From positions 10,474,708 through 10,538,707 of the forward strand of contig JARUPZ010000008.1 in assembly GCA_031213475.1 (NCBI GenBank): a stretch of DNA of 64,000 nt, read 5' to 3'. Each line of letters starts with the position of its first letter. The stretch's first letter is position 1. The position numbers were made by a program, and so were the translations under genes. The DNA is from Nereocystis luetkeana. Its lineage: Eukaryota; Sar; Phaeophyceae; Laminariales; Laminariaceae. This document shows, in pieces, positions 5,640-61,285 of this stretch. Under the pieces are notes generated by a model, which was given only the letters and a program-made list of their open reading frames with translations, was not told where the DNA came from and ran no database searches.

Positions 5640-8534
5640 ATCCTCAAGAAGAACTCCAAAGGGGTATACTCACGACACGCACAGGGCGATACACGATTCT
5701 TGCAGGCGCATGCTGTCTTTGACGAAGCCAGACGTGGCAACCAGCTGAATCGCTCGTACGGGTCGCTCTTGCCCTTGCTCGCCCGAGGCATCCTCCATCG
5801 TTACGGTTGACGTAACCAGAACGGCTGGGCCGTTTGTTTTATGTATACGCACTACCTGTGTGAGCCCCAAACAAAGAGCGAGCGACAGGCATCACGCGAG
5901 GAAAGACAAGTGTTGGGGGTCACCGCTTGGCATGATAAAAGAGGTTGCAACGACACGTCAGCCTGATGACGAACGCAGCCGTGATGCAAGAAGAGGTGTA
6001 CCGCAAGATCACAAGTACACCACGGCAGCAGCGTCCGCAGCTCAAAAAGTGAACCCGGGAACCGGCCGCCACGAGAGGGACGGTAAGAACCCGAAGAATT
6101 CAACAAGATTCTCAGCTGTAGGCACAGCCCACGCAAACAGGCTGCCCAAGCTGTCCGGCAGAGAATAGTCAATACCCAGTCCCAAATACATGGATGCCTC
6201 CCAGGGAGTCATGCCGGCGCCACATTTGCCTTGCTGCCGTATCAACGATTAATACAGGTAGCGACGTGTTTTGGCAGCCAGCGGCCGGACAATGCGGCAT
6301 CTGATCGTCGTGCACATCTACGCGTCAAGTCGTGCAAATTATGACAGGCATTACTCCTCCCTATTTGATACTGGTACTCCATACTGCCGGTACCTCTTCC
6401 TTTTGGTGGCCATGGCGGTAGGGTACTTATTGTCTAGACCTACATCTCTAGTCCCGGTGTCGCCGCGGTTTCTCTTCACGCATATCTCATTTTTTCCAGA
6501 AGGCAGGTTAGAGTAATATCAGGAGCCACACTGCTGTCGTGGTACGCTGCAGCACCAATGGCCAAACGAAACCAATGGTCAAACAGAACGTGTGTACCAC
6601 CCACCCTTCCCTCCACTCACCTGCCGGTCCTGACTTAAGAGGCGGAAGTATTTTAGTGTGCAAACAAAATCTCATGCTGAATAGTAGAAGAAAGCTCCAC
6701 CGCTGGCCCCAAAACAACAAGGGAATCTGTGGGCGGGGGGGTTAGTTTGCCATCCCCGAAATTGAACGCCTTCTACACAACCGGAAACCCTATACCAGGG
6801 ACACAAAAAAAAGTCCAAGGAATGGAAACGCTTCCGATTAAAGTTGGAAATATCTTCGTTTGCGGGAATCCTCCCCGATCCCAGAGACCAAGCAACAAAT
6901 CCCCCCGAAGGCGCCTTTCCACCATCCACGCCCACCGACTTGGACGACGGCGCCTCTATTATCGGGGACACCTAGGGCTGCTGTGTGGGGGAGACATGGC
7001 ACCACCGTGCGGTCGCGGGCGGCTTGGTGGCGCTCGGGAGACCCGGTGCTCCGCGGGGCACACTACAACCGATATGTTTTTCACAATTATATACTACACT
7101 ACTACTTCAAAAGCGTGTAAAAACATTATACTTCGTAGTACATACCTGGTATTGTTAATAATCGATTCTCCGTAGGGGAAGACATCTACTCCATGAAGGC
7201 AGGTGCATCAGTTGAGTGTCCCTTCCGTGGTCGGGGATGGTTCCACGACCCCTCCCTCTGTTTTCTCCAAAGTGTCCGAAATGCTTCCTTCTGCTTACCC
7301 AACCACATGCACCGTTTCAAGTCTCAATGCAATGATGCATGCGAGCGCGTGCACGTGCACAACTGCGTGTAGGCATTTTTAACCAACTCCTACGCAAACC
7401 CTGGCGAGTGCAGGCAAGGCTCGTGGTAGCATACGTATTTCCTTCGCTGGACACAGCGACCCCGAGAACTTTCTGACATGCGCGACCGCGCGCGTAAAGT
7501 CTTTTCAAGCGCAACGACCGTGACTTCTTTCAAACACAGCGAACTTGAATCATAGCATAGACTCGTTCCAAGCAGAGGCGACCCGATAATAAGAATGGAA
7601 TGTGTTCAAGCGCCGTTACCCAGCGTCGATACCAGAGGCACAACGACCTAGAGCTTGTCTACAGTAAGCACAGCAACCAAGCAGGCCTCTGGGGTTGGGT
7701 TTCGGGTTCGGACTAAGGTCACGAAGGAACCGTAAGGAATACGTTCCCAAGTGCGCCCGAGTAGGCGTTCCACAACGAATGCACACGACATCGAAATATG
7801 GGGAAGAGCTCTACATAGGAGATATGGTACGACTTCGTCAGAATAAAGGAACTGAAGAACTTCTGCAAAAACACACGAGAATCCGAATTTCTTTGACCTT
7901 TTTTGCCTTTTTCTTAGCCCAATACTGGACTATATACCTCAAACCTAAAAATGAAATTTCTTGGTCCGCGGATATCCTCTTGGTTGGTAATGAAAATTAT
8001 CAGCGACAACCCTGGCTAATGGTGTGCAAAGCCGCTTGTCCATACGTGATATACCCCCATGGCACTACGTAGTACCATGAATAGCGCGTGAAAATACTGA
8101 AATCATCGGATCTGCACTACTTTCTCGACATCTTGGTGATGCTGCATGGCAACTCTGACTTAACAAAAACCACCTTGACCAGTCGTTTCTGTTTGCCTCC
8201 GATTGCTGCCCGGTTCACCTGACGCCCTCCCGCACCCTATAATACGAGCGTGACCCTATACTACGAGCGTTGTGGTTCGTTGCGCAAGTGAAGTGCAACG
8301 CGTTCGGTCGGGGGTTGTTTTGTTCGCCTCATTTTGATGTCTTCCGAATTCCTTCCTATCTCGACCACTGCGGCACCCCAGAGTCGAGGGGTAGACTCCC
8401 GTTGAGGAAGTGCGAGTGGGCAATCCGGAGGGTACCACACGTTTATGTAAATGAGATGCTACCACCGTACAACACCCGTTCTCTGCCAAGGGCCCGAAAT
8501 AACGAGCACAGTGTACATCGTAGTTGAATAGAAC
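5640..8534. other. No recognisable gene
   Basis: Apart from the possible first exon of the FNIP gene (5,672-5,810, minus) I see no supported feature. A short direct duplication (CCCTATAMTACGAGCG twice) lies at 8,235-8,270. One TACCWGGTA site is at 7,143-7,151. Confidence 0.4.
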
Positions 8535-8902
8535 AACATGAAAACTGATTTGATTTCAAGAAGATGTCGTGAAAAATGACTTTGGGGTCCTACTACTGTA
8601 GAGTGATAGCTTCCTATCCTGCGCCACAGAAAATAAAAAAAGGCTGGCGGTGGCGCTCACTCGACAACGCACGTCTTCGCTCTTGTATACGCTCGTCGCT
8701 GTTTATCGGCTGGGCGTTGTGTGATGCGGTGCGTTATTCCAGGCTATTCCGAATTATTCTTTGTTTGACATTTAGTACGCCGTTTCCCGATACGACACAA
8801 ACACGTTTTTTTTTCTCGGAATCAAATAACAACTCATTGAAATTGACAATATATTTCCCAAACACGATTTTTAGCGTTCCCCGTTAAGATGGGCCCTTAA
8901 AG
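8535..8902 (+). mobile_element. TIR DNA element, family D, copy 2 (right-hand part only)
   Basis: Homologous to the right part of 2,189-3,022: the shared blocks include GAGTGATAGCTTCCTATCCTG, a segment around TCGGCTGGGC, and the terminal CGTTCCCCGTTAAGATGGGC followed by CCTTAA. The left half and left TIR are absent, so the copy is truncated and probably inert. Confidence 0.55.
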
Positions 8903-9109
8903 GTATCTCATGCTAGTTCCAAGTTGATCGTTTTTCGTGACAGCCCTGTGCGGTTACCCCACTGCTTACAGCTTACAGCGCTTCTACCGCGACGATGCTA
9001 CCGCTGTAGTCTACTGCTTTACTCGTATGTATATGTGACCTCTCCGCTTCCCCGCGTGGTCAGTGACTTGGTTTCTGTTGGCTGGGTGCGGCCATCCCAG
9101 CCAACTCCG

Positions 9110-11219: not shown

Positions 11220-11227
11220 TACCGGTA
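11220..11227. other. TACCGGTA micro-insertion site
   Basis: Within family D copy 3 the sequence reads CTACCGGTATGG (minus-strand sense). The sibling copy at 8,752-8,790 lacks six bases at this TA, and with them removed the two align without gaps over 39 bp. See the finding on TA-CC(W)GG-TA scars. Confidence 0.6.
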
Positions 11228-13759: not shown

Positions 13760-16030
13760 CCAGCTCGTCCGATGATCGACGCTCGATCTCAACATAGACG
13801 CAGCCCACGGCCAACCCGCTCCGTGTCCGGCAAGGCACGAATATGGATGACGGCCTTGGAGGTATCAGGTGGATCCATGGTCTCGGGGGTGAGAGCTTGC
13901 CGGCGGCGTCCTACGGTATCCTCCCAAACCTGCAAAAAAGCCTATTTTTCGCCATGCGAGACGGATGGCGAGAACTTTTGTCTTCTGCTTTGTGCACACC
14001 AGCGGCCAATTGTTCTTTTTATAATACGCCTGGTTTGCTCCCGCCACATGACACGGGCCATGGTGTGAAGACGGTGACCCTAGGGTGGGTCGGAGCCCCT
14101 AACGAGCGCTCTCCGCTCAGAATTAAAGACGCAGTCGTTGGTTTTGTTGATCGATGTCAGTCAAGGACTCGGAATCTCGCCGCTTCGAACCAAAGATCGG
14201 CCTGAGTTTTTATACAATTATGAAATACGTCAGCTGTGAGTTCGACTGTTTACATAGTTGATACTCAACTTTGCAAGCTGCGTAATATGTGTCGTCTATA
14301 TCCCATTTTTACATAATTTCCAAATTTTATGACAAGTCGTTCGCGCGTATTCTAGATGTATTTCCTTGTCAAGGATAGAGGCCAGTGACTCCCCTGGATG
14401 CTGCCCGGGTCAACAGGACAATATACATAATCATTCGGCGCACTGATACTATATAACCCAGATAAGGGAGGGTATCTAAACGTGCCCATAGGAAGCGTTT
14501 TCTATAAAAATCTGGAGGGTATCTTTGAAATTCAAACTTTTTGTTGATATGTACTTTGCTTTCCCATTGGCATACCTGGTAGGTCTGAGCATTTTCTTCT
14601 TTTTTTTTCTTCTTTTTTCCCGAACGCTCTATCAACTATATTAGCTCATGTTGCCGGGTTGAACCCGTATATTCCGCGTGGTCAAGCTCACGCTTCCTGG
14701 GATGATCTGTACTACACAGATCTTGCACGACCTCCTACAACTGCAGGTGAGGAGCCAGATCATCTCCTCTGTAGACAGATAGATCATGACCTCGCACTGC
14801 CGAGGGCTGAAATGGGTTTGATCGCCGCTATATTAGGCTGCTGCTATTGCTGGTGGGCTTCGGGCTACCCCGAGATCCGGGAGAGTCAAGGCGGGAGCGA
14901 CAATACGGAGCTAAGAGGCTGCCCGGTCGTGCATTTCGCAGTGCGGGCTGCGGAGAATTTCACCGGTTCTCGATTGGAGACCAAGCCATGTACCGGTAGT
15001 GCCCGTGAACCCATTCGTTCATGTGATTCGCAGCGGATTGCGCATTATTAAGCTGTCTAGATCCAAGGGATAACGGAGTAATATTCATCCACCTGCACGC
15101 GAAGCACGAAGCACAGCAGCAGCGATCAGTACGGTGCCCGAGCGTAGTTGTGATGTGATGGTCTATCGTTGACGGATGCTTTGAATGGCCGTGATAACTG
15201 CTGTTGTTGCCGCTTTTGGTTGATTGCTTTCTCATTCCCATTGCTTTCACCCGCTTTTAGTGTCCTAGGAGTTACTATCGGAAAGAAGGCTTTTGCACTT
15301 TGGGACCACGGGGTATAATCTTCCTTCGTCGGGGTGCTTGGTCCCGCGAACGATCGACTTTGGGGTCTGATAACCGAGCAAGTCTAATCAAGGCAATCCG
15401 AGAGCTAAGAAAATATCTCAATCTGAAAATCATGCATCGCAGGTGAGGCACGTATGTCGCTGCGCCGTTGTGTTGCATAGCCGTCCCTCACGCTGTCGAA
15501 TGTCTTGATACTGCTGTGCTCTCTCTATATACTGCTGTACGAGTACGTAGCTGTCTATGATGCATGCGTGATACGACACCAGATACCAGATCCATACTCG
15601 TACATAACGTGGTGTCGTACAGCTACTACAGTAGAAGTAGACCTGTAGGCATACGATACGAGAACAAGGAACTCAAGGAACCAGTATCGTGATTTACGCG
15701 CCACTGGATGATCAGCCCAGCATGACGGGGCACCCTAACGTTGAGGTCGTAGTGAAAAACTCGACAGCCTACTTCGAAGTGGCTGCTGCTAAATACTGCC
15801 TGGGTGAGCTCCATGAACTCAAATGAACTCAATGACATTTGTTCCTACAGCAGCAGCAGTACATGATCGTACAGAACACTACCAGGTATTTAATTAATAC
15901 TGCTGGTATGAAATAATACTACTCACTCTAAAAAAGAGATAAAATAAGTTTGAAAAGTCAAACTATGTACCAGGTAGCGTTGTTTTATGCACCAGCATAC
16001 AGGTCTTCGTCTGCACTCGTAATAACCCTT
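13760..16030. other. No recognisable gene
   Basis: Short overlapping frames only. Contains TACCWGGTA sites at 14,573, 15,890 and 15,968 and a TACCGGTA at 14,991. A 40-bp stretch near 14,700 (GGGATGATCTGTACT) is shared loosely with 38,607. Confidence 0.35.
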
Positions 16031-16118: not shown

Positions 16119-16257
16119 ACAGGGGTAACAATAGTGCATCTCCTTCCCTTATGCCTTTCACGCGTCCTACCTCCTACCCGTATACCGGTACTTGGTACGC
16201 ATACGAGCCCTTGCGACTTGTGACAGATCTGTAAACCCGATTAGGCAACAACTGGGC

Positions 16258-20441: not shown

Positions 20442-20551
20442 TATTACGGGGGACCGTAGTTAATAGGACCTATGGTAGACATAAAAAACCTATAGATTTA
20501 ACCATTTATACCAACAATATTTGGTCCTATTAACTATGGTCCCCCGTAATA
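20442..20551. mobile_element. MITE family A, copy 1 (TA target duplication)
   Basis: About 110 bp, flanked by TA. The terminal inverted repeats begin TTACGGGGGACCGTAGTTAA and continue into TAGGACC; the core is AT-rich. TA duplication and TIR layout place it with Tc1/mariner-type MITEs. Other copies are at 24,441, 29,223, 29,351 (with one nested), 32,950, 34,090, 36,570 and 44,637. Confidence 0.85.
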
Positions 20552-30300: not shown

Positions 30301-32108
30301 CCCCCCTCCCCTTTCCCCTCGCCTCCCTCTGTTATCTAAACCCAGTCTGCCCCCCGTGTGCCTCTGTTGAAATTTGTTACGCACACGCGTGCCACCTCAA
30401 CGACGATATCCATTGCTTTATTGTTTTGGCCGTCAGTTTAAGGTCTTCGGTTGTTCTGTTCGAGATTTGTGTAGCCCACGGCGTAAAGATCACCGTAGGT
30501 ATGGGGCAACAAGCGACGTCTCGCGCGCACGCTCAGCCGTCGCACCACGCCTCTCGTAGCTGCAGCCTGCAAGAATACCCCTCTCGCTCGTCCTCTCCTA
30601 GTTTATGCTTGTACGGAGTCGCTGCTTCTCGTTATCTTCCATCGATGGCCTCGACATCTCGTTAGTTGCTTCGATCGGTGCACCCCGTTACCGTCTCTCG
30701 GGGGCAAGCGCCAGAGTTTGCTGCTTCCATTCATACTTCGATCCTGCCCTGTCCTGCCCCGTCCTGCCCTGCCCTGCGTTGCCCTGCCGGACCCCGTCCT
30801 GCCCTGCTTTGCCCTGCTCTGCCCTGCCCCGCCCTGCCCCGCCCTGCTCTGCTTTTACCCTGCCCTGGCCTGTTCTGCCCTGCCCTGCCCGACCCTGCTC
30901 TGTCCTGTTTCTGGGGATGCCGCGCGTGATACGGTATGCAGGCGTTGGATGTGAACCGGGGGGGTGCCGTAGGGTTGACGAAGGCAATTCTTCCGAGCAT
31001 GGTGGACAGGCAGGAGGGGCACGTGGTCGTCGTCATCGCCGGGGAGGGGGGGGCGGAGGAGGAGGAGGAGGAGGAGGAGGAGGAGGAGGAGGAGGGGGAG
31101 GTAGACCGATACGAGTTCGAGCCACGAGTTGTTTGTTCTGTTGTTTTTGTTTTTTTGTGCGTGTTGGTTGTTTCTTTGATTCCTGCTGGTAGGTCTTACT
31201 TTTTTGTTTCCCACGTGTTCGTGTGCGCATGCTGCTTGTCCCTGCATCTTGTAATTTTTGCCTCGAGCCGTATGCGTTATGCCTGGTCTATACTATGCGT
31301 ACATACCTGGTCACATGCATACAGATCGTTTACAGACAGACGGCCCAAGAATATGCATGTCATTATGTGAGCCTTGGTGCTTGTGCCAGAAAACGGTATG
31401 CCGTCCTGGTAGTTGACAGACAGACGGTCCAATAAATTATACCAGGTACCAGGTATTAAACTACGTAAGGCTTGGTGCTTGTGCCAGAAAACGGTATACC
31501 GGGGAGATTTGATGATGTGTACGGTGAGGTTTGTTGCGCTCGAGCTGCCGATACGCCAGGAGTTTATCGTAAACCAGCGTAAAACCACTGATCTACCGCT
31601 TTTTAGCGTTTTTATAGTTATATGGGCTCGATGATCCGCTACATTAGATCCCAGTAAGCCGGGGAAAAAGTTGTGATGCGGCTGGCGGTGTCGACACTCT
31701 CGATTTTGCCCGAATAGTTGGCCTTTTTTTTATGCCCCTCGCTTGCGCTTGTCGCATGAGGCATTACAAATACTGTGCTAGGATTGGGTTTCCATTCAAA
31801 CCCAGCGGAGGTGTTCCATGTTTTTGGATTATGTCAGTTCTGTTCTCCCGCGCCGTCTCTCTCCTGATGCTATCAGTGGATCATATGCCATTATTGTTTC
31901 GGGTCGATGGTCGTATTTTCGTTATTCTGACAAATCCGACCTACGATGAAGTAAGTCCTCCAAAAGGGATGCATGGTTTGTCGACTTGTTCCTGAGTTCT
32001 TTGTTGCGGTTGGGCTAGGGCGCTCTCCATGCCTTCCTTCCGTCCTCTCTTCCTACTTCCCTCCCCCCTCCCTCCCTTCCTCCCTCCGTCCTTTCCGCCA
32101 GCACAATA

Positions 32109-32142
<34 letters not shown>

Positions 32143-35100
32143 GATGCTGTTGTTGTTTTTATAGTCGTGAGTTGTCCCCGCCCCCCCCGACCCGCCCTAT
32201 AAATTTCCCGCCCTCATTTTATTCATGTCTGGTGTTCTGATTATTCTTCTCAGGGGGGCGTCGCCACCGACGCTGAGGTGGTGTCTTCGCACGCCTTGCG
32301 GAGCTACTTCGACAGCCTCCGGACCGAGGTAGCTAGCGACAACATCAAGGTCACCGTCGCTCGACACTCAGGTGACACTGTATTTAAAATATATTTGACA
32401 CTATATGTGGCACTATATAAATGTGGCACTATATAAATGTGGCACTATATGTGGCACTATATAAATGTGGTACTGTGTGTGACACTATGTGCGGTACTGT
32501 GTGTGGCACTATATCAGGTACTATATTTGGTCGATAGGCGGCATTCTATGTAGCACGACATGTGGCACTATATTTGGTCTATATGTGGCACTAAATGTGA
32601 CACTATATGTGGCACTATATGTGACAGTGAATGTGGTACTATATATTGCACTAGACTTGACACTAAATGTGATACTGTGTGTGTAACTAGACGTGGCAGT
32701 ATATGTGGCACTATATATGGCACCACATGTGGCACTATATGCAGCCCTATATGCGGCACTATAGGCGGCAATATATGCGGCACTATATGTGGCACAATAT
32801 CTTTTGTTTTCGACAGTATATTTTGGACATGAACCTGCAGATCATGCGCTCGATCATCGGGTTGAGTGGCCTCCTATGAATAGTACCACTAATGACTACC
32901 GGTAAGTGCGAAGGAATCGCTAGTGGTACTATAAATAGTTAACTACTCGTATTACGGGGGACGATAGCAAATAGGACCAAATATTGTCAGTACAAATAGG
33001 TAAATACATCTTTTTTGTGTAGACCATAAGTCCTATTATCTATTGTCCCCCGCAATAGTTCTAATGACTGTAGACACATTGTAGAGTTCCTCAAGTAAGA
33101 CGCCTCAGCAAAATCGCGGGTGCACCTCTATGTGCCATGGTTGATGATGAAGAACGCCGGCGTGGGTAGGCGAACGGGGAACGGGGGAGGGGTGGAGGAG
33201 GGGGGTTGGGGTGGGGTGGGGTGGGGGGGGGGGTGTGTTCTCGATATCCTGCATGTTTTACTCGGATGCCCATAGACCCTCGCATGCCTACAATGCCGGG
33301 ATGGAGCAGGCAGGGAGGGGGGGGCTACTCGATAGGAGAGATGTACTCGATCTCATGCATGGCCGTAGTCGTATGACCATAGACCCTCGCATCCCTACAA
33401 TGCGGGCAGGGAAGGGGGGGGGGGGAGTGGCCAGAAGCCCGCCACTGCAAAACGGATGACATTGTTCCGATCGCGTGATACTTCGTCTGGTTGGAGAGTG
33501 GGGAGGTGGGAGGTGGGATGGGGTGGCGCTGTGGGGCGGGGTTATTTTGAGGGTGGGAAGTATTTGCCTTGGCGCTCGTTTGGGCGAGGAATAGCGAGGG
33601 GCAAGCGCGGCAACGCCCGGTGTTTTTGTTTTGCTTTCTGAAGCGCGTTTTTTTTTTTTTTCTCGTCTAGTTGGGGTCGATTGGTGTCGCCGACTCTGTA
33701 ACGTCACCACACGACGGGAGTTGCGCGCGACTGGTCTATCCCCTCTGCCGGTTCCTCTTCCTCCGCACTGCGAGAAGGCGTCTCTCTAACGGTATGAGAT
33801 ATATGACTCTGCGCCGATTTGATATCGCAAGGATTAGAGGAAGGCCTCATCCACCCCATTTTCCGTTGCCTAATATTCTCCAAGCCCTGCACAACTGTTT
33901 TGTTTGTCACGCTATCCCTTCAGCTATCGGCTGAGCGCCCCCTGTCATCACTCGGGGATATTTGTTTTTTTTGTGAGGCATTCGAAGATCAGACACCCCT
34001 CACCGAAGAGTCAACCTGACCTCAGATCCCCCCCCTCCCTCCTCTTATCGGCAAGAAGATCTTGAAACTGTTGAAAGGGCTTGCAACGGTTACGGGGGAC
34101 CACAGTAAGAAGGACCAAACATTGTTTGCCAAAAATGGTAATCATATACCTGGTAGGTTTTTGTGTGCACCATTTTTTTTTTTTTTTTCATCCCATTCAT
34201 TATCTTCGCACATCTTTTTATCTCTCTCCTTCCTACTCATAACTCAGATCCGGGGTCACATAGCAGGCTCTTCTCCCCCCTTCCCGCTACGGTGGGTTCT
34301 ATTTACTGTGGTCCCCCGTAATAAACAGTTGCACTTACCGGTTGCGGTTAGGGTTGATAAATAGGGATTGCAATGAGGGGTTGCTAATTACAGACGTAGG
34401 GGAGCCGTGGCACGGGACAGCACAGGGGCTTCAACATGGGGTTTGCTACTAGGCGCTGCACATCTGAGCCCGAACATAGCATCAACCATCGAGCATCAAC
34501 GATTGCAACTGAATAGCTAACCGATATTACACCCGATATCTTCGCATCTTGATGCATGTTTTTTGGTGATTTTCAGGTGCCATGTACCCCTTCTGAAAAA
34601 CTACTGAAAAACGACTTTTTGCTCCATTTGCACCTTCATTTGATTCAAGGAGCTGCCCCCCCCCCCCCTCCCCTCTCAATTAATTGACGCTGTCATCCAT
34701 ATCGGAGAAAATCCGCCTCGAAAGCGATTCTTAACTCGATGCCATCTTCATGCGACTCACGGTCTATGGTCACACGACTACGGCCATGCATGATATCGAG
34801 TACATCTCTCCTATCGAGTACACCCCCCCCCCTCCCCCCTCAATTCATTGACGCTGTCATCCATATCGAAGGAAATCTGCCTCGAAAGCGATTCTTAACT
34901 CGATGCCATCTTCATGCGACTCGCCTAACACCTCACGGCCCTTCGCGTTTTGGTGCAAAGGCCATATCTGCCTGGTCGGTGAAAACCTGACGTGCTCCGT
35001 CCCAGCGGCATTGTACATGGGGATGCGAGGGTCTATGGTCACACGACTACGGCCATGCATGATATCGAGTACACCTCCCCGACCCCCCCCCCCCCCCCCC

Positions 35101-36569: not shown

Positions 36570-36687
36570 CTATTACGGGGGACCATAGTAAATATAACCA
36601 AATATTGTTCGTGAAAATAGGAAAATATATAGTTTTTTTTGTGTACCGTAGGCCCTATTTACTACCAGGTATGGCCTCCCGTATTAC
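36570..36687. mobile_element. MITE family A, copy 8, with TACCAGGTA insertion
   Basis: TA-flanked, left end TTACGGGGGACCATAGTAAA, right end TATGGCCTCCCGTATTAC. Seven extra bases (CCAGGTA, 36,665-36,671) follow a TA in the right arm where other copies read TTTACTATGG. Confidence 0.8.
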
Positions 36688-37724: not shown

Positions 37725-38325
37725 ACATGGCGGAAGCAGAAGAAAATATTAAAAAAAGGGACCGGCTAGCGCAAAGAAACAAGGTGGAATCGAAAAAAAA
37801 GCACTTATATATGATTGAGGGAAGAGATATAAATGAAACGTATTTGCACGTACCAATGGACTTCGCGAAAACCCTGAAACTGCGCTTTCGTGTAGGTGAC
37901 CTGGACCTGCCAGGAAGAAGAAAGAGGTACACCAGTAGCCGGGAGGAGGAAGTAGATGCACAGATGTGCCCGTGTGGCAAAAAAATACCTGGTAGAGAGT
38001 AGAACTCACATAGTAGGAGCATGTGAAATATACGAGGAGGAACGGGATGTGTCGGCAGGGGAGACGAGGGGAATAGGCGAATGTGACATGGAGGAGTTGG
38101 ATACACTAGATAGCAACGAAACAACAATCGCTATCCTGTGAGATGGATGGTGGCGGCCAAACAAGAAGGATATAAGACTAGGGAAAAGTTTCTACGTAAT
38201 ATTTGGAAACGACGTAACGAGCGCCCAACTGTTGAAAGTGTCTCTATTAGGAGTAGGAACGGTGCTCCGTCTCGAAAGGGATCCGTGGTCAATGGTCAAA
38301 TTACTAAGGCCAGCAACAGATGAGT
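37725..38325 (+). pseudogene. LINE (non-LTR retrotransposon) ORF2 C-terminal fragment, frameshifted
   Basis: Encodes the region after the reverse transcriptase of a LINE: a charged segment (KKRDRLAQRNKVESKKKH), a cysteine pair (MCPCGKK), then in another frame RTHIVGACEIYEEERDV and the acidic segment ECDMEELDTLDS. A last stretch with RNGAPSRKGSVVNGQ follows. The Cys/His arrangement (CPCG...HIVGxC) is the C-terminal zinc-knuckle type of LINE ORF2 proteins. The frame change at 37,986-37,994 coincides exactly with a 7-bp CCTGGTA insertion after a TA. 5'-truncated; a poly-C tract (38,329-38,341) lies just beyond its end. Same family as the LINE at 44,786-46,970 is plausible but not shown. Confidence 0.7.
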
Positions 38326-41295: not shown

Positions 41296-41299
41296 CTCA

Positions 41300-44636: not shown

Positions 44637-44785
44637 CTATTACGGGGGACCATAGTTAACAGGACCTATCGTGCACATAAAAATCTATATATTTAACCAT
44701 TTTGACTAACAATATTTGGTCCTGTTAACTATGGGCCCCCGTAATAGTAAAAATGGTCAAATATATAGGTTTTTATGTATACCCA
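44637..44785. mobile_element. MITE family A, copy 9, plus partial copy
   Basis: Complete TA-flanked copy at 44,639-44,746 (TTACGGGGGACCATAGTTAA and complement). A half copy (AAAAATGGTCAAATATATAG and GTTTTTATGTATACC) follows directly and marks the edge of the LINE. Confidence 0.8.
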
Positions 44786-46970: not shown

Positions 46971-47975
46971 GGGGGGGGGGGGGGGGGGATAGAAATGGCA
47001 CATTGCAAAAGAGGAACAACTTCTGCAGTAGAACACACGTACAATGCGTATTGGTGAGCCACTGAACCGATGATATACGCGAGAGAAAACTGGCATTCGC
47101 GGGCGAATATACTGCTTTATGCTCGTGTAGTAGGTATACACACAGTTACCCCCACATGCATGCATATAAATAAAGAGCATACGCACCAGGGGGGGTCAAG
47201 CTCTGACTACATTTTTGCAGTTTTCTTATCCGGAATACAGGAGGAGTACGGTACTATAAATAGTATCCTTCGCAGCTCGCGAAGTCGAGCATCACCCAAC
47301 GATGACGTGCATTGCTTATTTATATACGGTCCAGCTCGCAGTTAGCGAACGGACTTCTTCCTGCAGTACTATTACTGCGTGTATCGGTATAGGTATACAC
47401 AGAGCGTATATGTCATGCCGTGAGAGCATGACGGGTACAATAACAGCGCATCATAATAAGTGGTTGTCCGATATTGTTCTTCGGGGCTGTTTTTTTTAGA
47501 ACGCGCCCTGGGCTCACTTTTGAAACTGTGCCCTTCAAGAAGAGACTCTATATTGATACTCTCTGGGTAGCAAGACAAGCGGGGGGGGGGGGGGGGGGGG
47601 GGCGAGAGTAGTTTGCACAGTGAATGGAAACTGTTCCTACTTAATATTCCCCTGATACCTGGTATAACTATTATTATGGATGATTTCATTTGATCCCTGA
47701 CAACGTGCAGGGAGGCCAATATGTGTCCACAACAACAAAAACTGACACAATTCGCCGAATCAATCAATACCATAAATCTCACGTATGTATATCCTTTTAT
47801 TTTTGAATCTATGTGCTGATTTCTCTCCGACAATGAGCAGCACACATACATGCCTGTCAAGTGCGGCATGAACAAGAAATCACTTCCTCATCGTGATCCC
47901 CGACCCCGATTGTGTCGGGGGCGGCCTCGAGCGTGCTTGCGCCGTGCCCTGGCTGCGGGCTAGCAGGGTGTGAGT
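46971..47975. other. No gene; poly-G tracts
   Basis: Poly-G at 46,971-46,988 and 47,581-47,602. Short frames only. TACCTGGTA at 47,656. Confidence 0.4.
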
Positions 47976-48699: not shown

Positions 48700-49716
48700 A
48701 TACAAGGCGCTTTGCTCCGCGGGCGGCCTACGCCGCCCGCTACGCTCGCTCGGGAAGGAAAAAAGTACATCAAATTATGCGAAGCGAACAGAGGTCCACG
48801 ATTGAGTTTAATTTTTTCAAGGATCGTAATTGCAAACCGGCGACTTGATAATGCCAAGAGTCCCGCCGCCATGCTTCAGGAAAAAACAGCTCCGACGTCA
48901 GCTTGGATGCCACATATACGCTTCGCGTCGCGGATGTCGTACGTACGTACATACCCCAGGTAGGTAGGGTACTACTGTCTGTACTTATTTTCTTCTTTCG
49001 ATATGCTCTATGTCTGTCCTGTATGCACGAAGAAAGCGAAAGCACAGCACGGCACAGCAGCAAAAACAATGAAAATGAAACCGCAAACTCCAAAAAGAAA
49101 AAAAATCCCCGTCCCCTCTCGTGTACCTGGTAATATTTTTCTGCCTGATTGGAACATCTTACACCCGTCGAAAAGACAAAAAAGAAAAAAACGCACAGAA
49201 GAGCTTCTCTCTCAGCCTCGTACGCCGCCCGTTCCTCTCGCGACCACCTCGCTACCGATTTGGTCCGGGTAAAGCTTTTATCACTCTCTGCCACAATCAG
49301 CCCTGTCGCCCGCCTCGCGTGAAGCCCGGTGCTCACCGTGGCCGTCGTTCGCCAGCTCGATAACGTTGGTGTTCAAACTGCACACCTCCCTCTTTCAACT
49401 TTTTTAGCGTGGTCGCAAAAATAAGCACCGCTTGAATATTATCTTGCCCTCCCGAACGACCTTCATAACTCGTATATACTCTATCAACAATCATAAATCG
49501 AAGCCAGACAAAGTCCGTTCATGCATCCCTCGTGTCTCGAGGCACACGCGATGCCTAGGCACGAAAGGGGCGACCGCGCTCCTTGCAACCCCCCCTCTAC
49601 CCGCCAGCACCCGCTGACACCCGCGACGGTGCCGGGTCCTCCCGCGATGCCGTGCTCGGAGAACACGCAAGCACACGAAAAGAAAAAAGAAAAAGGAAGA
49701 AAGGACCGAGAAAACA
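48700..49716 (-). repeat. 1-kb inverted duplication, arm B
   Basis: Inverse of 17,140-18,130, with the terminal hairpin GCGGGCGGC...GCCGCCCGC at 48,719-48,741. Differs from arm A by scattered substitutions, small indels in homopolymers and a 7-bp CCTGGTA insertion at 49,136-49,142. Separated from arm A by about 30.6 kb. Confidence 0.75.
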
Positions 49717-49719: not shown

Positions 49720-51940
49720 GACACCCGCGACGGTGTTGCAACGCTACGGGCTTCAGGAGTCGCCCAGGTGGGCGACAGGGTATTCTGTGATGTACGTTGA
49801 CTGACCTGACCAGTGACGCACGGAGGGTGCATCGTGTAAGGCAGCGATAAAGCCGTAGGATGGCTCGCTGTCATATCGATGTAGGTATACAATGGAGTGT
49901 CCCCGGCGGGGGAGGCCATTGTCTGGGTCATGGAAACCCCGTATCGGCTGTAATGGTCGATGCGGGTGCTCTCTGGCCCTACCTGGGGTTAGTCAATCCC
50001 ACCAAAGAACGAAAGAAACAAGTCAAACCATATCCTGTTCACACACAGTGCATGATTATCGCTTATCACGTGCCTGTCTGTTAATCACACGTCGCACCTG
50101 CTGAGCAATACCAACACTCAACTCGCGTGGCGTCTGGCCACCCCGTGGCCAGAGAGGATTCAGGAGCGAGGAAAGGAGGAAATCCCCAGAAGGACTCTCT
50201 CAACGAACGACAACAGCTGGCTATCGAGGTGAGACCAAGCCGATAGCGGCACACAAGAGGAGGCAGCTGTAACATGTTCTGCTGTTTGTAACAGTTGTTG
50301 TTGCGGCTGATGCTCACGCAGTCCGCTTCACGGAGTAGGTCGGCCTGGGGTATAGTAATATGCGTTCCCTCCTCGTGCGCCTCCGGGTTCCCCCACTTCA
50401 TCGACTGATGTGCCAGGGGCGGCCTCGGATGTGCATGATATGCTAGTGCAGCTTCTCCTTCCTGCCGCTTTTCTGCCGCTGCTCTGGTGCTGTTGCTATG
50501 ATCGTGCTACTACCGTGCGGTTCTGCTGCTGCTCCTCTTGATATGTCTGTGATATGTTTTTTGAGCGTGAGAATGGTTTTAGGCAAGTCACCCCTTCTCG
50601 GGGATGTGTCTCCGCATCTCGAAGTTGAAAGAGGGACCCATCTGCTTCGGAAGCTGTGAGAGTGCCGTCTCGTAATGGACATTTATTTGTTTTCCGCCTC
50701 GGCGGAGATCCCGTGCCAGCGTTGTTTTCGTACGATACGTACCTGTATACGTTATGCTGCTATTGGCTGCTGCTGAGCTTGATGCACCGACGTAATGGCC
50801 GGCGCTTCTCACTGTCGATTCGCTCGATCGACTGCTGCTCAACTAACTGTTTTGTGCTATCTGCACACGAAGCATACATACAGTACGGATACCGAGCATC
50901 TCGGTATGTGATACATATCGTATACCTGGTATATTTTTAATGGCTGCTTGGTGCTGTACGAAGGATTTAAGTGTTGTTGTGCCGGATGGTGGATGATAAA
51001 GGTTGTTTTTCCTGTGTTTCAAGCGTTTGTTTTCTTTTATTTCTTCACTCTAAAGTTGTGCCCGCCGCGGCGAAGCCCCTTGCATATATTACATATCCTT
51101 CTAACACCTGCAGCAACCATCTAACTCAGGCCGTTGCCTTCTAAGCAGCATTACCCATCAATTTTTCACCCCCGTGGGGGGTAATGCGTCACTCCCCCCG
51201 TCCCCTGATCCTCCTATCTCCCTGCCATCTATCTGCAGGACGGTTGTTGGGGTTTTTCTGGTCGAGACACCCTTCCCGCGAGAAGACAATCGAACCTTTT
51301 GTGCGGAAAAGCTGTTAAAAGACTCTGTTTTGCCAGACAGAGGCTTTTTTGCACGACATAATAAATTGTCCGCGGCCGACGGGGGAGTGCGTTCTTGAAA
51401 AAAAAAAAGAAGACAGCAGCAGCAGTGGTTGGTGTTGTGTTGCTGTTATAGGAGAGCTGTTTGGAATGTGATCAAGGGACTTGCGGGGAAGGTGGGGAGG
51501 GGGGGACGTCGGAAGCGCCGCTCGTGATACGTTCTGGAACGGCTGGATATTTATTTGGAGGTTGTGTATTGTAATGAGGCGAGCGAGCGAAGCGAGCCTT
51601 TTTTTACTTGGTTTTTAACCAAGGAAAAAAAAGCCCCTTCATAACGGCTTGGGTACGAGGGTAGGGTGCCTGTTTTGATTTTTTCTGTATGTGTGTGTGT
51701 GAGTTGGTGTGTGGATTCAACATTTTTTTTGTCCACCTTTCACCACCGCGCTCGACGCACACGCCACCAAATCCAGTCCCGGCGGGCTCTGTGCAGGCAC
51801 ACACACGCAAGACACTTTCTCGTCCTGGTGGGGTGAAAAATCGTTCACAGTTCGTCGAGCTAGGTGCGGCAACGTGTCTAGGCACGTCTGTGCTAGGCCG
51901 TGTTCAAAATACGAAATCATAACGGTTTTTGTGCCTGTGC
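49720..51940. other. No recognisable gene
   Basis: Homology to 17,015-17,140 does not continue past the duplication edge. A CAGCTGACACCCGCGACGGT motif occurs at 49,716 and in part at 49,613. Otherwise short frames. TACCTGGTA at 50,933. Confidence 0.4.
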
Positions 51941-52522: not shown

Positions 52523-52564
52523 CACTAGTGATTGGACGTTTGAGGTCTGGTACCAGAAGCTAAG

Positions 52565-54487: not shown

Positions 54488-54570
54488 GTAGCTCAGCGGT
54501 CTATCCTCTATAAACGAACAAAAGAAGTACCTTTGGGCTCGATACGGCCTCCCGCCGAAAGTCAGAGCGT

Positions 54571-55371
54571 TTGATCGTGTTTCCGCTGAGTGGGACCCTT
54601 TTCAGCCTGTACGGCTACCGGGTCGACCGCAGTTGTGGGGAAACTGCCTGTGCTGTACTCGCCCCGGGACAACCGCCCCACAAGTCTGCGATCAATATCA
54701 ATGATTTCCACTGCGCGGCTGGACACTCCCATGAGGTACTACTCCGCAAGACGGCGTCGCAGCAAGGGATTGTCCTCGAGGGAAAGCTGCTGGAGTGCAG
54801 AGGGTGCTCCATGGCGAAGGGCCTCCGCAAAGGTATCAAGCAGTCCACACACACACGCGCAGCTAAGAAGCTTGGGAGGGTTTTTGTGGATTTGAGTGGA
54901 CCTAAGGTGGTAGAGTCTCTCGGAAGAAAGCGGTATACTCTGATAGTGCGCGACGATTTTTCTCGGTATACGTGGGTGTACTTCATGCGCCACAAGTCGG
55001 ACGCCACGGAATTGTTCGAGCAGTTTCTTGCGGATTCTCGTGCAGATGGTGTCCCTTCTACTGTGGTAATCGTCCGATCTGATGGAGGTGGCGAATTCCG
55101 CGGAGGCAAGTTTGGCGACCTGTGTAGATCACGAGGGATCAAGCAGGAATTTACGACAGCCGACAGCCCCCAATTTAACGGAGTAGCAGAGCGCGCGCTG
55201 GGTTTGATCGAGACGGCCGCAATGGCGGGCCGAATCCAGGCTAAAGAGCTTTTTCCCGGCACGCAACTCCCGGCCACTGCGTCATTGTGGGCGGAAGCGT
55301 CCCACTGGGCGTGTGACGCCTTGAACCGCACTGCAACGACAGCTAACCCTGAGAGCAAGTCGCCGCATTAG
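54571..55371 (+). pseudogene. Copia integrase segment of pol
   Basis: Zinc-binding region (FHCAAGHSHE ... CRGCSMAKG), then the DDE core: VDLSGP, VIVRSDGGGEF and FNGVAERALG provide the Asp, Asp and Glu. Joins the 3' cut element to host DNA. No usual start: it is a piece of a polyprotein whose link to Gag-protease is lost by a frameshift. It ends at a TAG (55,369-55,371), in the place of the Tyr normally found before the conserved MWHG, and the next segment is in the same frame. Confidence 0.9.
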
Positions 55372-56811
55372 ATGTGGCATGGTAGCCCCCCCCCGGTAGT
55401 ATTACTACCTTTCCTCAAGCCTGGCTACTGCAAGGTGAAGAGGGAAAACAAGTCACAGGTGAAAGCACAAGAGTGCTTTTACCTTGGCCCTGCACCCAAC
55501 TACCCCCGAGACTCAGTACGAGTATTGACGAGGCAACGCACTGTGCTAATCACGCGAAATGTCACCTGGCAGCGCGTGTCGCCTGCACCACCTGTACCTG
55601 CCCAGGCGAATGACTCCCTGTCTACGGAAAAGGGGGGGTCCGAGGCGGACGACGTCAGCACGTCGGATCGAGGTGGTGGGGGGGTGGTGAATGAGCTAGA
55701 CGACGGTCTGGCTCACTTGAACGACCTCGACGTGACGTGGGGTTTTGACCTGGACGCGTTTATGCAGGAGCACATACATCAGGTACCTGTCGCCGGCGAG
55801 GCCGGCGACGAAACACCAGAGACGATGGGTTCGTCTCAAGGGGGCGCCATGGACGCCTCCTCGGCCTCGAGGGGGAGGGCCGAAACAGCCCAGACGATGG
55901 GTTCGTCTCAAGGGGGCACCGTGGACGCCTCCTCGGTCCCGCCAGGGAGGGCCGAAAGCGACCCGGGTGCAGCATCAGTCTCCGACACCGGCCAAGGGAA
56001 CGGTGAGGGCCCTCCCGCGATCCTGTCGGGCAGGCCAGCACACGAGCTCAGCAGCTGGGGACGGCTCCCTCCAACAGTACGGGGCCGGACCCGGGGTCAG
56101 AGCCAACGCCTGGAGGGTGAACCTGCTGTGAACCAGCTGAAGATGGACAGAGGAGCCGCAGACGCGCTGCTTGCGGCAGCGTACGACTGGTGGACGACGC
56201 CTGGGAGTATCCTGAATCGTACGTCATGGACGACGGAGGACGCAGTGGCCTTGATGGCCGGAGGACCTGCCGTGGAGAATAAAGGGGAGTTGAGCGTGTG
56301 CATGCCGAGTGGTTTCCCGGAAGACGTAGAACCGCCCCCGCAGTCCGTAGCAGATGTAGAGCGTTCCCGATATAAAGCGGCGTGGCACGAGGCCATGCAA
56401 ATTGAGTTGGACGGTCACAAAACGACCGGTACATATGAAGCCGCGACACCGCCACGAGGGCGGAAACCTGTAGGCGCGAAGTGGGTGTTCACCTACAAGA
56501 CGGATAAGGATGGTATGATAGTAAAGACAAAGGCCAGACTTGTGGCTAAGGGTTTTAGCCAGGTGCAGGACGTAGATTACTTTCAAACGTTTGCACCAAC
56601 TCCTTCGTCAGCGTCAGTTAAAATTCTGGCGGCTGTTGCCAACGAATATGGTCTGAAGATGTTTCATCTAGACGTCGCGCAAGCTTTTGTTCGCGCGAAA
56701 CTCGACGCCGAGATATACATGAAACTACCCGGTGGGTGTGGTGACATGTCAGGAAAGATCGTCCTCTTGAACAGATCACTGTATGGTCTAAAGCAGAGCG
56801 GACGGCAGTGA
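55372..56811 (+). pseudogene. Copia pol: integrase C-terminus and N-terminal half of reverse transcriptase
   Basis: Starts MWHGSPPPV (the conserved integrase C-terminal motif). It runs through a variable, Ser/Gly-rich linker with a short internal duplication (SSQGG(A/T)(M/V)DASS), then reverse transcriptase: WHEAMQIELDGH, WVFTYKTDKDG, KARLVAKGFSQ and FHLDVAQAFVRAKLDAEIYM. It ends at a TGA (56,809-56,811) in the Trp position of the GLKQSGRQW motif. Same frame as the segments before and after, so this is a nonsense change rather than a frameshift. Confidence 0.9.
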
Positions 56812-57366
56812 GCCGGATTATTGGTGGAAACCGTGGTAGAGTACGGTATGGAGCAGTGTAGGTCTGACCCGTGTGTTTTTCGTATGGTTGTGGACGGCAA
56901 GGTAGAACTGATCATGGCCGTCCATGTAGATGACATCGTGATCGCAGGATCGGACGAGACATGCAGAGATTTCCATGCCGCGCTAGTTGCGAAATTCCCC
57001 ACAAATAACCTCGGCGAACTGACTTGGTATACTGGTTGTGCTTTCAAACGCGACTGGGAGTTGGGAACATTGGAGATTACGCAGAAGGCGTTTATAGAGA
57101 GCATGCTGAATCGTTTGGGTGTTAACTCATCCTCTGACATCCCCGCGACCCCCGGTGTGGAACTAGGTCCAAGAGAGGAGGGCGAAATTGGAGGAGACTG
57201 GCCGTACAGGGAGGCTGTGGGCAGCTTGATGTGGCTGTCGACCATGACGAGGCCGGACATCTCGAACGCTGTGCGTGCTGTGGCGCGCCACTCCCACAAC
57301 CCAACGGAGAGGCACTGGAAGGCAGTTTTGAAGATAATGGCTTACCTCCATGGGACCAGGTATTGA
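56812..57366 (+). pseudogene. Copia pol: C-terminal half of reverse transcriptase
   Basis: Continues in frame with LLVETVVEYGMEQ and CVFRMVVDGKVE, then VHVDDIVIAGS, which holds the VDD catalytic pair of copia reverse transcriptases, and YREAVGSLMWLSTMTRPDIS near the connection domain. Closes at 57,364-57,366 through a frameshift just after AYLHGTR. Confidence 0.9.
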
Positions 57367-57872
57367 CTTTTGTGCGGGGTTCGGGATTGGATTTGACAGC
57401 GTATAGTGATGCCGATTATGCCGGTAAGTCGAACGATAGGCGCTCGGTATCGGGGACGGTAATTACCCTAGGGGGTGCGGCCGTCAGTTGGGCAAGTAGC
57501 ACGCAGAGGTGTGTTACGCTGTCGACAGCAGAAGCAGAGTATGTCGCCCTGGGTGAAGGGGTGAAGGAAGCTTTGTTTACGGGCGCGGTGTTGTCGTTTA
57601 TTTGTCCAGAGCTAAGCGGATCATGTGTTCGGGTTTTCGAGGATAACCAGGGGGCCATAGCGTTGGCTGAGAACCCTCTTAGTTCTGCGCGGAGTAAGCA
57701 TATTGACGTGCGTTTTCATTTGGTCAGAGAGCTACTTCGTGCTAAGAAGATCGACATTCAGATCGTAGCTTCGGAAGAGCAGCACGCGGATATTTTGACG
57801 AAATCCCTTGCTGCGACCCCTTTTAAGTATCATCGTAGGTTCTTGGTGAATCTGCCCTTGGACGGCGAATAA
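57365..57872 (+). pseudogene. Copia RNase H segment of pol
   Basis: In a new frame: LTFVRGSGLDLTAYSDADYA, RSVSGTVITLGGAAVSW, TLSTAEAEYVAL, VFEDNQGAIALAENP and ADILTKSL. These carry the acidic residues of the RNase H site (SDADYAG, TAEAEY, EDNQGA). It degrades the RNA strand during reverse transcription. The stop at 57,870 is the normal end of pol. Confidence 0.9.
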
Positions 57873-58186
57873 GGGGGTATGGGCATTGTTCGATGAGTAC
57901 CATGTTTGAGTGATGCGAGGAATAATTTGTCAGGTCGCCAACCCTGCGCTACTTTGAGGGGCATGGGGGAGTAGGGCACAGCTTGGCATTTTATTTTCTG
58001 GCCATGGTCATCGTTTGGAATGCGGCCGTTGTTCAATTGCAATGATTTGAAGTATATGTGTTATACAGGGGGTTTTTACCCGGTGGCCGGGTTTCCTCCT
58101 GCGGGACTGTCGTTGGCTGTTCTTAGGTCCTAGCAAGTCTTGAATGTCTCTTCGGTCTCGTCATTGCTGTGAAGAGCCAGGGAGGG
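57873..58186 (+). other. Copia 3' untranslated region and polypurine tract
   Basis: No coding frame. The last 16 bases before the LTR (GAAGAGCCAGGGAGGG) are purine-rich and serve as the likely plus-strand primer. Confidence 0.7.
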
Positions 58187-58444
58187 TGTTCGTTTGGATC
58201 GTTCCAACAGCGACGGTTACAAGTTGTAGAGGGTTGCGTATATCTTCGCAGGCGTTATTGTGAATTTTGCCGTGTGTTCATGAGGAGAGTTCGAGCACTC
58301 CGTTCTCCGCTCTCCGTTCTCCGCGCCGAGCTACGAGCTAGGCTCCGCTCTCTCTCTCCTCCTCTGTCCTCTAATACAACGACTATAAAGAATCTCATCA
58401 GACCACGTGGTGGTCAGGGCATCCAAGTTTGGACTCTACGAACA
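58187..58444 (+). repeat. 3' LTR
   Basis: 258 bp; differs from the 5' LTR at CCAACAG/CCAGCAG, GGCGTT/GGCATT and CCAAGT/CCAGGT. Confidence 0.95.
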
Positions 58445-58499
58445 TACCCTCCAACTGACGAGGGGACGGAGAAACAGGAGAAGGTCTGCTGTAGTTGTA

Positions 58500-59075: not shown

Positions 59076-59199
59076 AATAAGCCCTTCTTGTTGGACAAAA
59101 CATGTGAGATGCAGATTTTTATTGTGCTGAATTTCAACCAGAAAACACTCTGCTGGACAAAACATGTCGAGTGTTGTGTGTTCTTCACTCTTTCTACCC

Positions 59200-59996
59200 G
59201 TCACATCCAGCACCACAGCAGTGTCCGTGCCGATTCCTCAATCCCTGATGAGATATAGACGGATTGACCTCCCCCTGCGCGAGAATTTATATTTTTCAGA
59301 TCAGAACCGCAAGTAAGTGCGAGGAGCATTTTCTTTTTCTGGATGACGGAGAAAGGTAATCGACTGGAAGGGAATGACAACGAGTGCACGCGCAAAGGAG
59401 CGGGTGGATTGGGCCAAGGTGATGATGCGGCCATGAAGAGCGGCAGGAAGACGGTGCATGGAGACCCATGATCTGCGCGCACACTATCATCACGAGAGAA
59501 GCAGTCATACTTTGTTTTTTCCTGGTATTGTTTTTCACGAGGCAGGATAGTATCTGTTACGGTTCGGTTGACCGTTTCAGGAGTTATGATGACATAGAGG
59601 CGTTTTCATATTGTAGCTCCGTTCCGGACGGAAGGTTTCATCCCCCTTCCGTCTCACTCAGTTCCCGCGACCATCGCCACGGTCACGGAACAAGCAATCA
59701 CTTACCATCTAGCCATCTCCAGTTGGAGCCTCTTCACAGAAGAACCACAAGCTCGCCCTACTCTCCTGGAGACCTAGGAGCGCACCTCTCGACTCGGTCG
59801 GACTCAAGCTCTGCTCTGTCACTGAGGTTGGTCATTCATGTCTCGTCTTTGTGTTCCCCTTTTGGGTTATGCGTCTCTGAGTGGTAACCTGTGGTCCACA
59901 GCTGCCACTCCTACCAACCATTGCAGAACCCTACATGTGTTGCCTTGTGACAATGACTTAAGACCTCAGCCCAGGCAGCCAGCATCCGTTTCATGG
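59200..59996. other. No confident gene
   Basis: A 139-codon frame from the ATG at 59,468 starts with a hydrophobic stretch (AVILCFFLVLFF), but the rest is Ser/His-rich without a family. I do not call it. Nothing else supported. Confidence 0.35.
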
Positions 59997-60068
59997 TGTC
60001 CAATCCGAGAATCGAACTCGGGTTTCCACAGCCACAATGTGGTGTACTGACCACTATACTAATTAGAC
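59997..60068 (-). tRNA. tRNA-His(GUG)
   Basis: The minus strand folds into a full cloverleaf of 72 nt without an intron. The acceptor is GTCTAAT with ATTGGAC (one G-T pair), with discriminator A. The D arm contains AGTGGTCAGT. The anticodon stem CCACA/TGTGG holds loop TTGTGGC, giving anticodon GTG at 60,033-60,035, and the T arm is CCGAG TTCGATT CTCGG. The extra G at position -1 typical of tRNA-His would be added after transcription. A clear T-run terminator does not follow immediately. A cytosolic nuclear tRNA is the simplest reading; an organelle-derived insert cannot be excluded. Confidence 0.9.
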
Positions 60069-61285
60069 CATGGTGTTCAGTCCCTGTACATGCTGCGCGC
60101 TTACTGCACGGGTTTGCATTTAATTTCCCGTGCCGGAACGATCGGCGGCCTTCGCGCCTCCGACCTGTTCCTTTCGATTTTATTTTTTATCTTGAGTAAC
60201 TTTTTTGGTAGCTGCGGGTGGCAGCGTTTTATTGTTTTTTTTTTTTGTGTGTTGCACCTCGCCTTTCCTTTGCCTCTACGGGGGGTACACGCGCTGATAG
60301 CGCTCTTCCTGCAAGAAACTCTGACCCACCGCTGACCACATGCATCCATGGACCACGTGGAAACTCAACCCCACTGGTACCTACTACGGGGTAGGCTGTA
60401 TCACGGATACAGCAGCAGCAGTACTGCGCGTCCCGCGCGTACGATAACACCCATGACTCTCAACGGGTGCTCATTATTTAGGGGGTCTGTACTCAATTAA
60501 TTATTTTATTTCGGCGGGGAATGCCTGAGTACCTGGTATAATTCATGATGCATGACACAACCAGGAAGCGACTTGCTCCCTGGCGCGTGTCCACATCGTT
60601 GATTCTCACTCTGGTACCCTCAGTTTTCGTGCTTGGCTCGACGTGTATTGAACAAATGGCGCAGGTGGGAGTCTTAAAGCTGGCAGCGCACTTGTCAGAC
60701 CCCCATCACCTCTTCCACACAGCAGCCAAAATAAAGAATGAATGAAAAATAAGCGTAAGCCTGACGATGATGCGAGGCTTGAGAGCGCGAGTGTCCAAGT
60801 GCGCTCGCTGGGACTCTCAGGCTCGTGTTCCACAAGCCAGCTGCTGTCACGTACGTCGTTACTGCCGTCGCTTGCCGTCACGTGCTTGTGTGCTGCCCTT
60901 ACCACGTGCGTGTATGTTGCCGCTGCCGTCGCCGCTTCGCCACGCTTCGTTGCTGCTGTTATCTGTGAAATAAAAATGCCTCACGGCTAACGCAACATAC
61001 TAATTCAAGGCACGTCCTTTCCCATCCCCCTTTCTTAGTTCTTGTTCTGGCAAGTTAGAGGTCGATAAGCATCCCTGCAAACCTTGCAAGCCACGTTTTT
61101 CATTTTCATGTGTCTTGGTAATTATAACGTTATAACTGCTGTGAGTCAGATCATTTTTAATAGACTACAGCAGTAGGCAAAATTACGTACGTACGAGTAT
61201 ACACTGTGTTATTGCATGTCGACCTCTCTATCTCTCTCTTCAGTAGGTTCACGGTACCGGCCTACCGCTGTTGTACTGCGATGTT
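60069..61285. other. No recognisable gene
   Basis: Contains short frames and a TACCTGGTA at 60,530. Nothing supported. Confidence 0.4.

Follow-up and report, generated by a model that had tools for sequence, protein, structure and literature searches.

The palindrome TACCWGGTA in the Nereocystis luetkeana genome: a recurrent insertion at TA and probable transposon excision scar

TACCWGGTA (W is A or T) is a palindrome that occurs 13 times in a 64-kb stretch of the genome of the brown alga Nereocystis luetkeana (G000:C8:10474708-10538707, referred to here as the window; the genome assembly has 465,085,209 bp in 1,987 contigs). The motif behaves as a 7-bp insertion at TA: sibling repeat copies lack it, it is in large excess genome-wide, and its flanks show a symmetric target preference. 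An enzyme-made insertion at TA with a defined target preference is well supported. From comparison of the sequences, TACCWGGTA is probably the excision scar of an unseen cut-and-paste transposon.

Excess of the palindrome and insertion at TA

The 13 copies in the window compare with a mean of 0.44 and a maximum of 2 in 100 dinucleotide shuffles. Genome-wide, TACCWGGTA was found 182,395 times, against 1,744 for the reversed pattern used as a control. The mean spacing is about one copy per 2.5 kb, or about one per 130 TA sites when the TA count of the 264-kb sample described below is extrapolated. A sequence-only reading of the window had claimed the over-representation and proposed a genome-wide count against a control; both counts agree with it, and the motif observation as a whole is confirmed. 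Three of the positions it gave (15,890, 49,134, and 50,933) were 10 bp too high, the true starts being 15,880, 49,124, and 50,923. The sites in the window and the related features are listed below (MITE, miniature inverted-repeat transposable element; L-numbers denote fetched genome stretches, with coordinates local to each).

7143..7151, TACCTGGTA, putative scar (motif count)
11220..11227, TACCGGTA, possible 4-bp variant scar (motif count)
14573..14581, TACCTGGTA, putative scar (motif count)
14991..14998, TACCGGTA, possible 4-bp variant scar (motif count)
15880..15888, TACCAGGTA, putative scar (motif count)
15968..15976, TACCAGGTA, putative scar (motif count)
16183..16190, TACCGGTA then TACTTGGTA, one TA common to both (motif count, sequence)
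20442..20551, TTACGGGGG MITE with TA on both sides, control family and probable source of the TATTAATA scars
31440..31455, two putative scars in tandem, TACCAGGTACCAGGTA (motif count, tandem-run analysis)
32897..32904, TACCGGTA, possible 4-bp variant scar (motif count)
34147..34155, TACCTGGTA, 7-bp insertion at TA in a TTACGGGGG MITE copy (sibling L013:4562-4488 without the motif)
36663..36671, TACCAGGTA, 7-bp insertion at TA in another TTACGGGGG MITE copy (sibling alignments)
37986..37994, TACCTGGTA, putative scar (motif count)
44638..44746, TTACGGGGG MITE copy
47656..47664, TACCTGGTA, putative scar (motif count)
49124..49132, TACCTGGTA, 7-bp insertion at TA in a repeat of about 1 kb (sibling alignments)
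50923..50931, TACCTGGTA, putative scar (motif count)
60530..60538, TACCTGGTA, putative scar (motif count)

The base sample comprised 264 kb, namely, the window and twenty 10-kb stretches picked by coordinate, two of which adjoin the window; 2,500 bases of L015 were masked. It holds 13,215 TA per strand and 67 TACCWGGTA sites, where 2.1 (second-order Markov model) or 1.9 (third-order) would be expected, and TACCWGGTA had the highest observed/expected ratio among the TA-N5-TA words listed. Density across the twenty coordinate-picked stretches ranged from 0 to 0.7 per kb, with none in 5 of the 20, and reached 1.3 per kb in stretches picked for the motif. It is barely credible that the motif is an assembly or sequencing artefact. 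Some small contigs are duplicated (L040 and L041, from contigs C1099 and C1378, are identical over 4,287 aligned bases), yet there are 182,395 sites, and the 67 sampled ones lie in many different contexts.

The spacing between the half-sites was counted in a larger set of 306 kb, which adds 30 kb from a motif-dense part of the genome and four 3-kb loci at motif sites and is therefore biased for motif counts. TACC-N-GGTA occurs 106 times (61 with T, 38 with A, 6 with C, and 1 with G at the center), so that 99 copies have W. With other short spacers, TACC-N(k)-GGTA was counted 13 times at k = 0, 12 times at k = 2, 9 times at k = 3, and twice at both k = 4 and k = 5; nine control dinucleotides, used as a baseline, gave averages of 2.6 to 6.1. 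Several longer spacings also exceeded the control means (9 for k = 6, 11 for k = 7, 30 for k = 8, 10 for k = 13, and 13 for k = 15), and the k = 8 class includes tandem scars (12 of its 30 strings were inspected). These counts bear on the idea that short foldback elements were lost by replication slippage or hairpin deletion, always leaving their outermost end bases. Foldback elements are common here (L030:5156-5489 and the TTACGGGGG MITE), but such loss should leave variable remnants, and 106 of the 140 TACC-N(0-3)-GGTA strings have one center base. We consider this origin very unlikely.

Every site with repeat siblings was aligned to them, and as many as five sibling rows were compared for each. 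Of the 67 sites, eight have sibling copies, and seven of these could be read; the eighth (L009:9564) falls within a larger gap of the sibling alignment. Each of the seven has at least one sibling row that differs by a clean 7-bp insertion (CCWGGTA) at TA. Such rows make up 14 of the 26 compared, the other 12 having gaps of different length or additional indels, and the whole motif is present in none of the 26. In the window, the clean rows number 1 of 1 at 34,147 and 1 of 2 at 36,663, where the sibling at 29429-29538 of the window lacks the motif cleanly and L012:3095-2989 lacks it with a further indel. At 49,124, all five sibling rows lack the motif (18135-17132 of the window, three from L010, and one from L023), and the difference is a clean 7 bp in two of them, those from the window and L023. 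Elsewhere, clean rows were 3 of 3 at L010:1556, 1 of 5 at L015:3808, and 3 of 5 at both L020:9284 and L020:9871. The weakest of the seven sites is L015:3808, with a sibling identity of 70 to 77%. Two of the seven sites lie in two copies of one MITE, at different places. A motif-blind listing of 5- to 12-bp insertions between repeat copies gave the same seven events (its 7-bp class has 37 keys, with some events counted twice). The sequence-only reading had claimed clean insertions of 7 or 6 bp wherever a sibling exists, and proposed that repeat families be aligned and their indels listed. The alignments recovered seven CCWGGTA insertions and uphold the 7-bp part for the three window sites with siblings, insofar as each has at least one clean row; no TACCGGTA site in the window had a sibling, which leaves the 6-bp part unconfirmed.

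Target preference, tandem sites, and a control palindrome

Flanks were pooled from both sides of the sites after removal of tandem neighbors (n = 118). A or T is found at position -7 in 105 of the 118 flanks (background, 0.51; P = 4e-18), A at -6 in 63 (background, 0.24; P = 1.5e-11), and a purine at -1 in 94 (background, 0.61; P = 2e-5), while T at -1 is found in 5 (background, 0.19; P = 8e-6). With tandems included and both sides required simultaneously, A or T at -7 is seen at 54 of 67 sites, a purine at -6 at 42, and a purine at -1 at 44. The preferred target is thus W-A-N4-R-TA-Y-N4-T-W, a symmetric pattern such as a transposase or integrase would leave. The motif could instead be a functional or selected palindrome, for example, a site for a regulator or a chromosome-organizing protein, in keeping with its symmetry and its wide though patchy distribution. 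Against this, the motif is found within MITEs and other repeats that lack it in their sibling copies, and its flanks carry the pattern of an insertion target; we regard a selected function as highly improbable.

Each scar presents T-A at -7/-6 and G at -1 to the adjacent TA and so makes a good new target. The motif is found at 2.4% of TA sites with W-A-N4-R on one side (47 of 1,983), compared with 0.45% overall (118 of 26,200). Doubles account for 8 of 59 runs in the 264 kb, where we estimate that this rate would predict roughly 1.4 to 2.8, suggesting that re-use of the same site or a finer preference is likely. Among 16 tandem pairs (8 in the 264 kb and 8 among the first 100 places listed in the genome-wide count), 12 have the same center base and could be simple duplications, while the 4 with mixed A/T centers are not.

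A MITE family of the same genome, TTACGGGGG, served as a control. Its copies are foldback, mostly about 105 bp, with ends TTACGGGGGACC and TA on both sides. The perfect 14-base end TATTACGGGGGACC occurs 35,384 times genome-wide (17,726 forward and 17,658 reverse), compared with 0 for the reversed control. Copies in the window lie at 20442-20551, 24441-24549, 29224-29332, 29430-29538, 32950-33057, about 34090-34322, 36570-36686, and 44638-44746. The family shows the short foldback, flanking TA, and high copy number of Stowaway-type MITEs, and on these three traits we tentatively class it as one. Another TA-flanked element, L020:476-647, has Stowaway-like ends, CCACTCCGTCCCGAAATA, similar to those of grass Stowaway elements.

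The palindrome TATTAATA (TA-TT-AA-TA) has 93,112 copies in the genome, compared with 10,689 for its reversed control, and is enriched 20-fold (second-order model) or 7-fold (third-order model) in the 264 kb. Its flanks (n = 52, both sides of 26 sites) have Y at -3, R at -2, and C at -1 at frequencies of 0.83, 0.79, and 0.44, and the flanks of MITE insertions (n = 28 ends) have them at 0.75, 0.82, and 0.64; the values for all TA sites are 0.51, 0.50, and 0.21. Since the two sets match, TATTAATA behaves as would a scar left by a MITE that the genome still contains. It might arise from a 3-nucleotide (nt) TTA overhang annealed over two bases. The CCWGG sites do not share this pattern (0.41, 0.45, and 0.14), which suggests that another enzyme or element probably made them. 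Clean 6-bp insertion rows were found for 2 of the 5 TATTAATA sites with siblings (L016:811 and L015:3784). In viral contigs, scanning for the MITE end and a triple scar found neither. The words TACWGTA and TACSGTA, with three bases between the TAs, are about 2-fold enriched in the 264 kb with little flank preference and are possibly scars of further families.

The shorter palindrome TACCGGTA had been taken by the sequence-only reading for a second product of the same event, a claim that our data do not support. Its four copies in the window exceed the shuffled mean of 0.78, a weak excess since the maximum was also 4, reached in 1 of 100 shuffles. The 264 kb contains 11 sites where 3.7 are expected (both-strand counts, 22 and 7.39), and enrichment is only 3.0- to 3.5-fold. 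No sibling comparison was readable, the two copies in L021 both carrying TACCGGTA, and the flanks (n = 26) show no clear preference. TACCGGTA might represent a minor product, or a different family might have left it as a scar. The tandem TACTTGGTA reported after the copy at 16,183 is present.

Excision of an unseen transposon and rival origins

In the excision reading, the donor would be a TA-inserting, Tc1/mariner-like cut-and-paste DNA transposon with ends beginning CCAG(G) or CCTG(G). It would land at a TA with preferred flanks, duplicating the TA, and on exit a staggered cut would leave 4 to 5 nt of each end on the flanks. End joining would then leave TA-CC(W)GG-TA, 7 bp longer than the original site. 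The leftover strands would be complementary except at the center base, so joining should nearly always give the same product. A 5-nt overhang, CCAGG, or a 4-nt overhang, CCAG, joined over three bases, would give exactly the main product, and fill-in could produce TACCAGCTGGTA (4-nt overhang) or TACCAGGCCTGGTA (5-nt overhang) as minor products. We infer the presence and departure of the element, its end sequence, and the overhang length. Of the Tc1/mariner traits, integration at TA with TA duplication was found for the scar and not for an element.

The sequence-only reading had derived CCGG from two-base overhangs and CCWGG from three-base overhangs with a mismatched center. With a 3-nt overhang, CCA, TACCATGGTA would be expected as a frequent product, and the 264 kb has one such site (both-strand count of 2, with 0.41 expected); this chemistry is therefore disfavored, and a 4- or 5-nt self-complementary overhang appears to fit better. 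We also dropped the view of the A/T center mixture as mismatch repair: the A and T forms are a single sequence read from either strand, and the center W is uninformative. What stands of the scar interpretation is the insertion, the excess, the target preference, and the scar-like behavior of TATTAATA; the link to TACCGGTA and the overhang chemistry do not.

Donors were sought in about 306 kb as TA-flanked inverted repeats starting with CC[AT]G, as repeat-family boundaries at TACC, and as split alignments. End pairs with at least 11 of 16 positions matching gave 44 loose pairs, which were judged by eye; none was accepted, and most are pairs of separate scars. L030:5156-5489 (16/16) looks like a 330-bp donor, but its inverted repeat extends past the ends and the motif lies inside the foldback. 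L022:750-2967 and L022:480-3253 (16/16 and 15/16, with ends CCAG and CCTG) are parts of a longer L022 inverted repeat and were not accepted as element ends. The best candidate, L024:9096-9908 (TACCAGGGTA...TACCCTGGTA, with CCAGGGTATATAWT resembling a terminal inverted repeat [TIR]), may be two separate 6-bp scars; the TACCAGGGTA at both of its ends is a 6-bp variant that also occurs alone in L015, L025, L029, and at 4,895 in the window. L021:3037-4250 has longer direct repeats, which we read as an 8-bp target site duplication of hAT-like type, and is not a TA element. L021:4426-4998 is a TA element whose ends, CCGTAATC, cannot yield CCWGG; it is about 570 bp with long inverted repeats, CCGTAATCATGCGAAGGTTCGCACC, and its sibling at 14284 in the window is empty. 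Two further scar candidates were set aside as local repeats: TACTCSGAGTA (10 of 11 in one L022 repeat) and CAGCTAGCTG (14 of 14 in L015). The DDE_1 transposase domain has 28 matches in the genome, two of them inverted within a long palindrome at C34:4445281-4448513.

Several results weigh against excision of a transposon. No convincing CCWGG-ended donor was found in the roughly 306 kb, as the sequence-only reading had also reported for the window. A search for Pfam DDE_3 gave no match, and no CC[AT]G-ended element lies near 5 of the 28 DDE_1 matches (three distinct loci, about 19 kb; at L043, a DDE_1 locus with a long palindrome, the check covers the best 10 pairs). The control MITE has 28 element ends per 26 TATTAATA scars in the 264 kb, about one end per scar, so a CCWGG donor must either be far scarcer relative to its scars or have died out. 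Among the sites and siblings compared, there was no filled-site or polymorphic copy. Other 7-bp insertions end in TA or can be placed there (CCTCGTA in L015, GTACTTC/TTCGTAC in L010, and TCACGTA in L016), so CCWGG is not the sole sequence gained at TA. One-mismatch forms number about 82 where about 48 are expected in the 264 kb, beside the 67 intact sites (the palindromic center class is counted once), and together with length variants (pooled n = 84) they hardly show the -7 preference; many may thus be chance matches and not decayed scars, and we dropped the dating of scars by decay as a firm claim. Finally, the TATTAATA control is imperfect: 2 of its 5 sites are unreadable, L023:2283 has a sibling of equal length and hence no insertion, and some copies sit in AT-rich repeats.

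The missing donor is the chief weakness and keeps alive a direct micro-insertion without an element, in which the 5-mer and a TA copy would be added directly at TA sites, either by a transposase using short pieces of element ends or by a nuclease specific for TA together with a polymerase. No convincing donor turned up despite 99 TACCWGGTA in the set searched, the scar is extremely uniform, and the center W would require no mismatch repair. Against this, we know of no enzyme that makes such insertions, and TATTAATA acts as the scar of an existing MITE, indicating that scars of ordinary elements probably occur here. We hold direct micro-insertion to be unlikely. It is quite unlikely that the motif is the end product of a donor-less system whose enzyme, which might be a domesticated transposase, writes the fixed 5-mer CCAGG, in one or the other orientation, together with a copy of the TA; there would have been more than 180,000 writings in preferred TA sites of one genome, with its own products as good new targets that give tandem arrays of 7-bp period.

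Known systems and other features of the window

Among known systems, the footprints of Tc1/mariner and Stowaway elements come closest. Sleeping Beauty and mariner excision involves three-nucleotide overhangs and leaves small footprints (PMC7827188). The system proposed here resembles them in inserting at TA, duplicating it, and joining end bases into a small footprint (PMC7827188). It differs in that 5 bp, not 3, stand between the TAs, in being known from the scar alone, and in having about 182,000 copies, a major feature of the genome. Grass Stowaway MITEs and Osmar share the TA target, the short end remnants, and re-insertion beside an older footprint (PMC1925063, PMC4561436). Grass footprints vary, consisting of 1- to 4-bp TIR fragments (PMC1925063), whereas one palindromic form dominates here. 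hAT (Ac/Ds) excision also leaves palindromic scars (PMC4561436). Those palindromes come from the flanking DNA, unlike the scar described here, which is constant whatever its flanks. In Ectocarpus, also a brown alga, a 2025 survey describes nearly 12,000 Mariner-Tc1 copies in 17 families, most of them non-autonomous; the strings footprint, excision, and palindrom are absent from the survey's main text (PMC12477816).

Among the matches listed in literature searches, none describes such a scar on a genome-wide scale, which does not prove that no description exists; for TACCAGGTA and TACCTGGTA searched as strings, the papers among the matches listed look unrelated by title. Transposon footprints are known singly, and here one footprint-like form is found 182,395 times in a genome. 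If the sites are scars, they would allow the cut-and-paste jumps of one lineage to be counted, however many elements survive, and a nearly invisible element could add more than 1 Mb of 7-bp insertions (182,395 × 7 bp). Given two scar types that differ in target preference within one genome, transposase target choice, end-joining precision, and jump rates would be measurable from sequence.

The window has other features as well. A Copia-type long terminal repeat element spans 52265-58447, with 261-bp stretches at 52265-52525 and 58187-58447 that are 98.5% identical and matches to gag, integrase, and reverse transcriptase between them. At 40866-41297, CCCGGGTA repeats and GGTACC palindromes are clustered, both inside a 94-bp tandem repeat and next to it. 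A protein with FNIP repeats encoded in the window has 19 relatives, including two from Laminaria digitata and one from Pylaiella littoralis.

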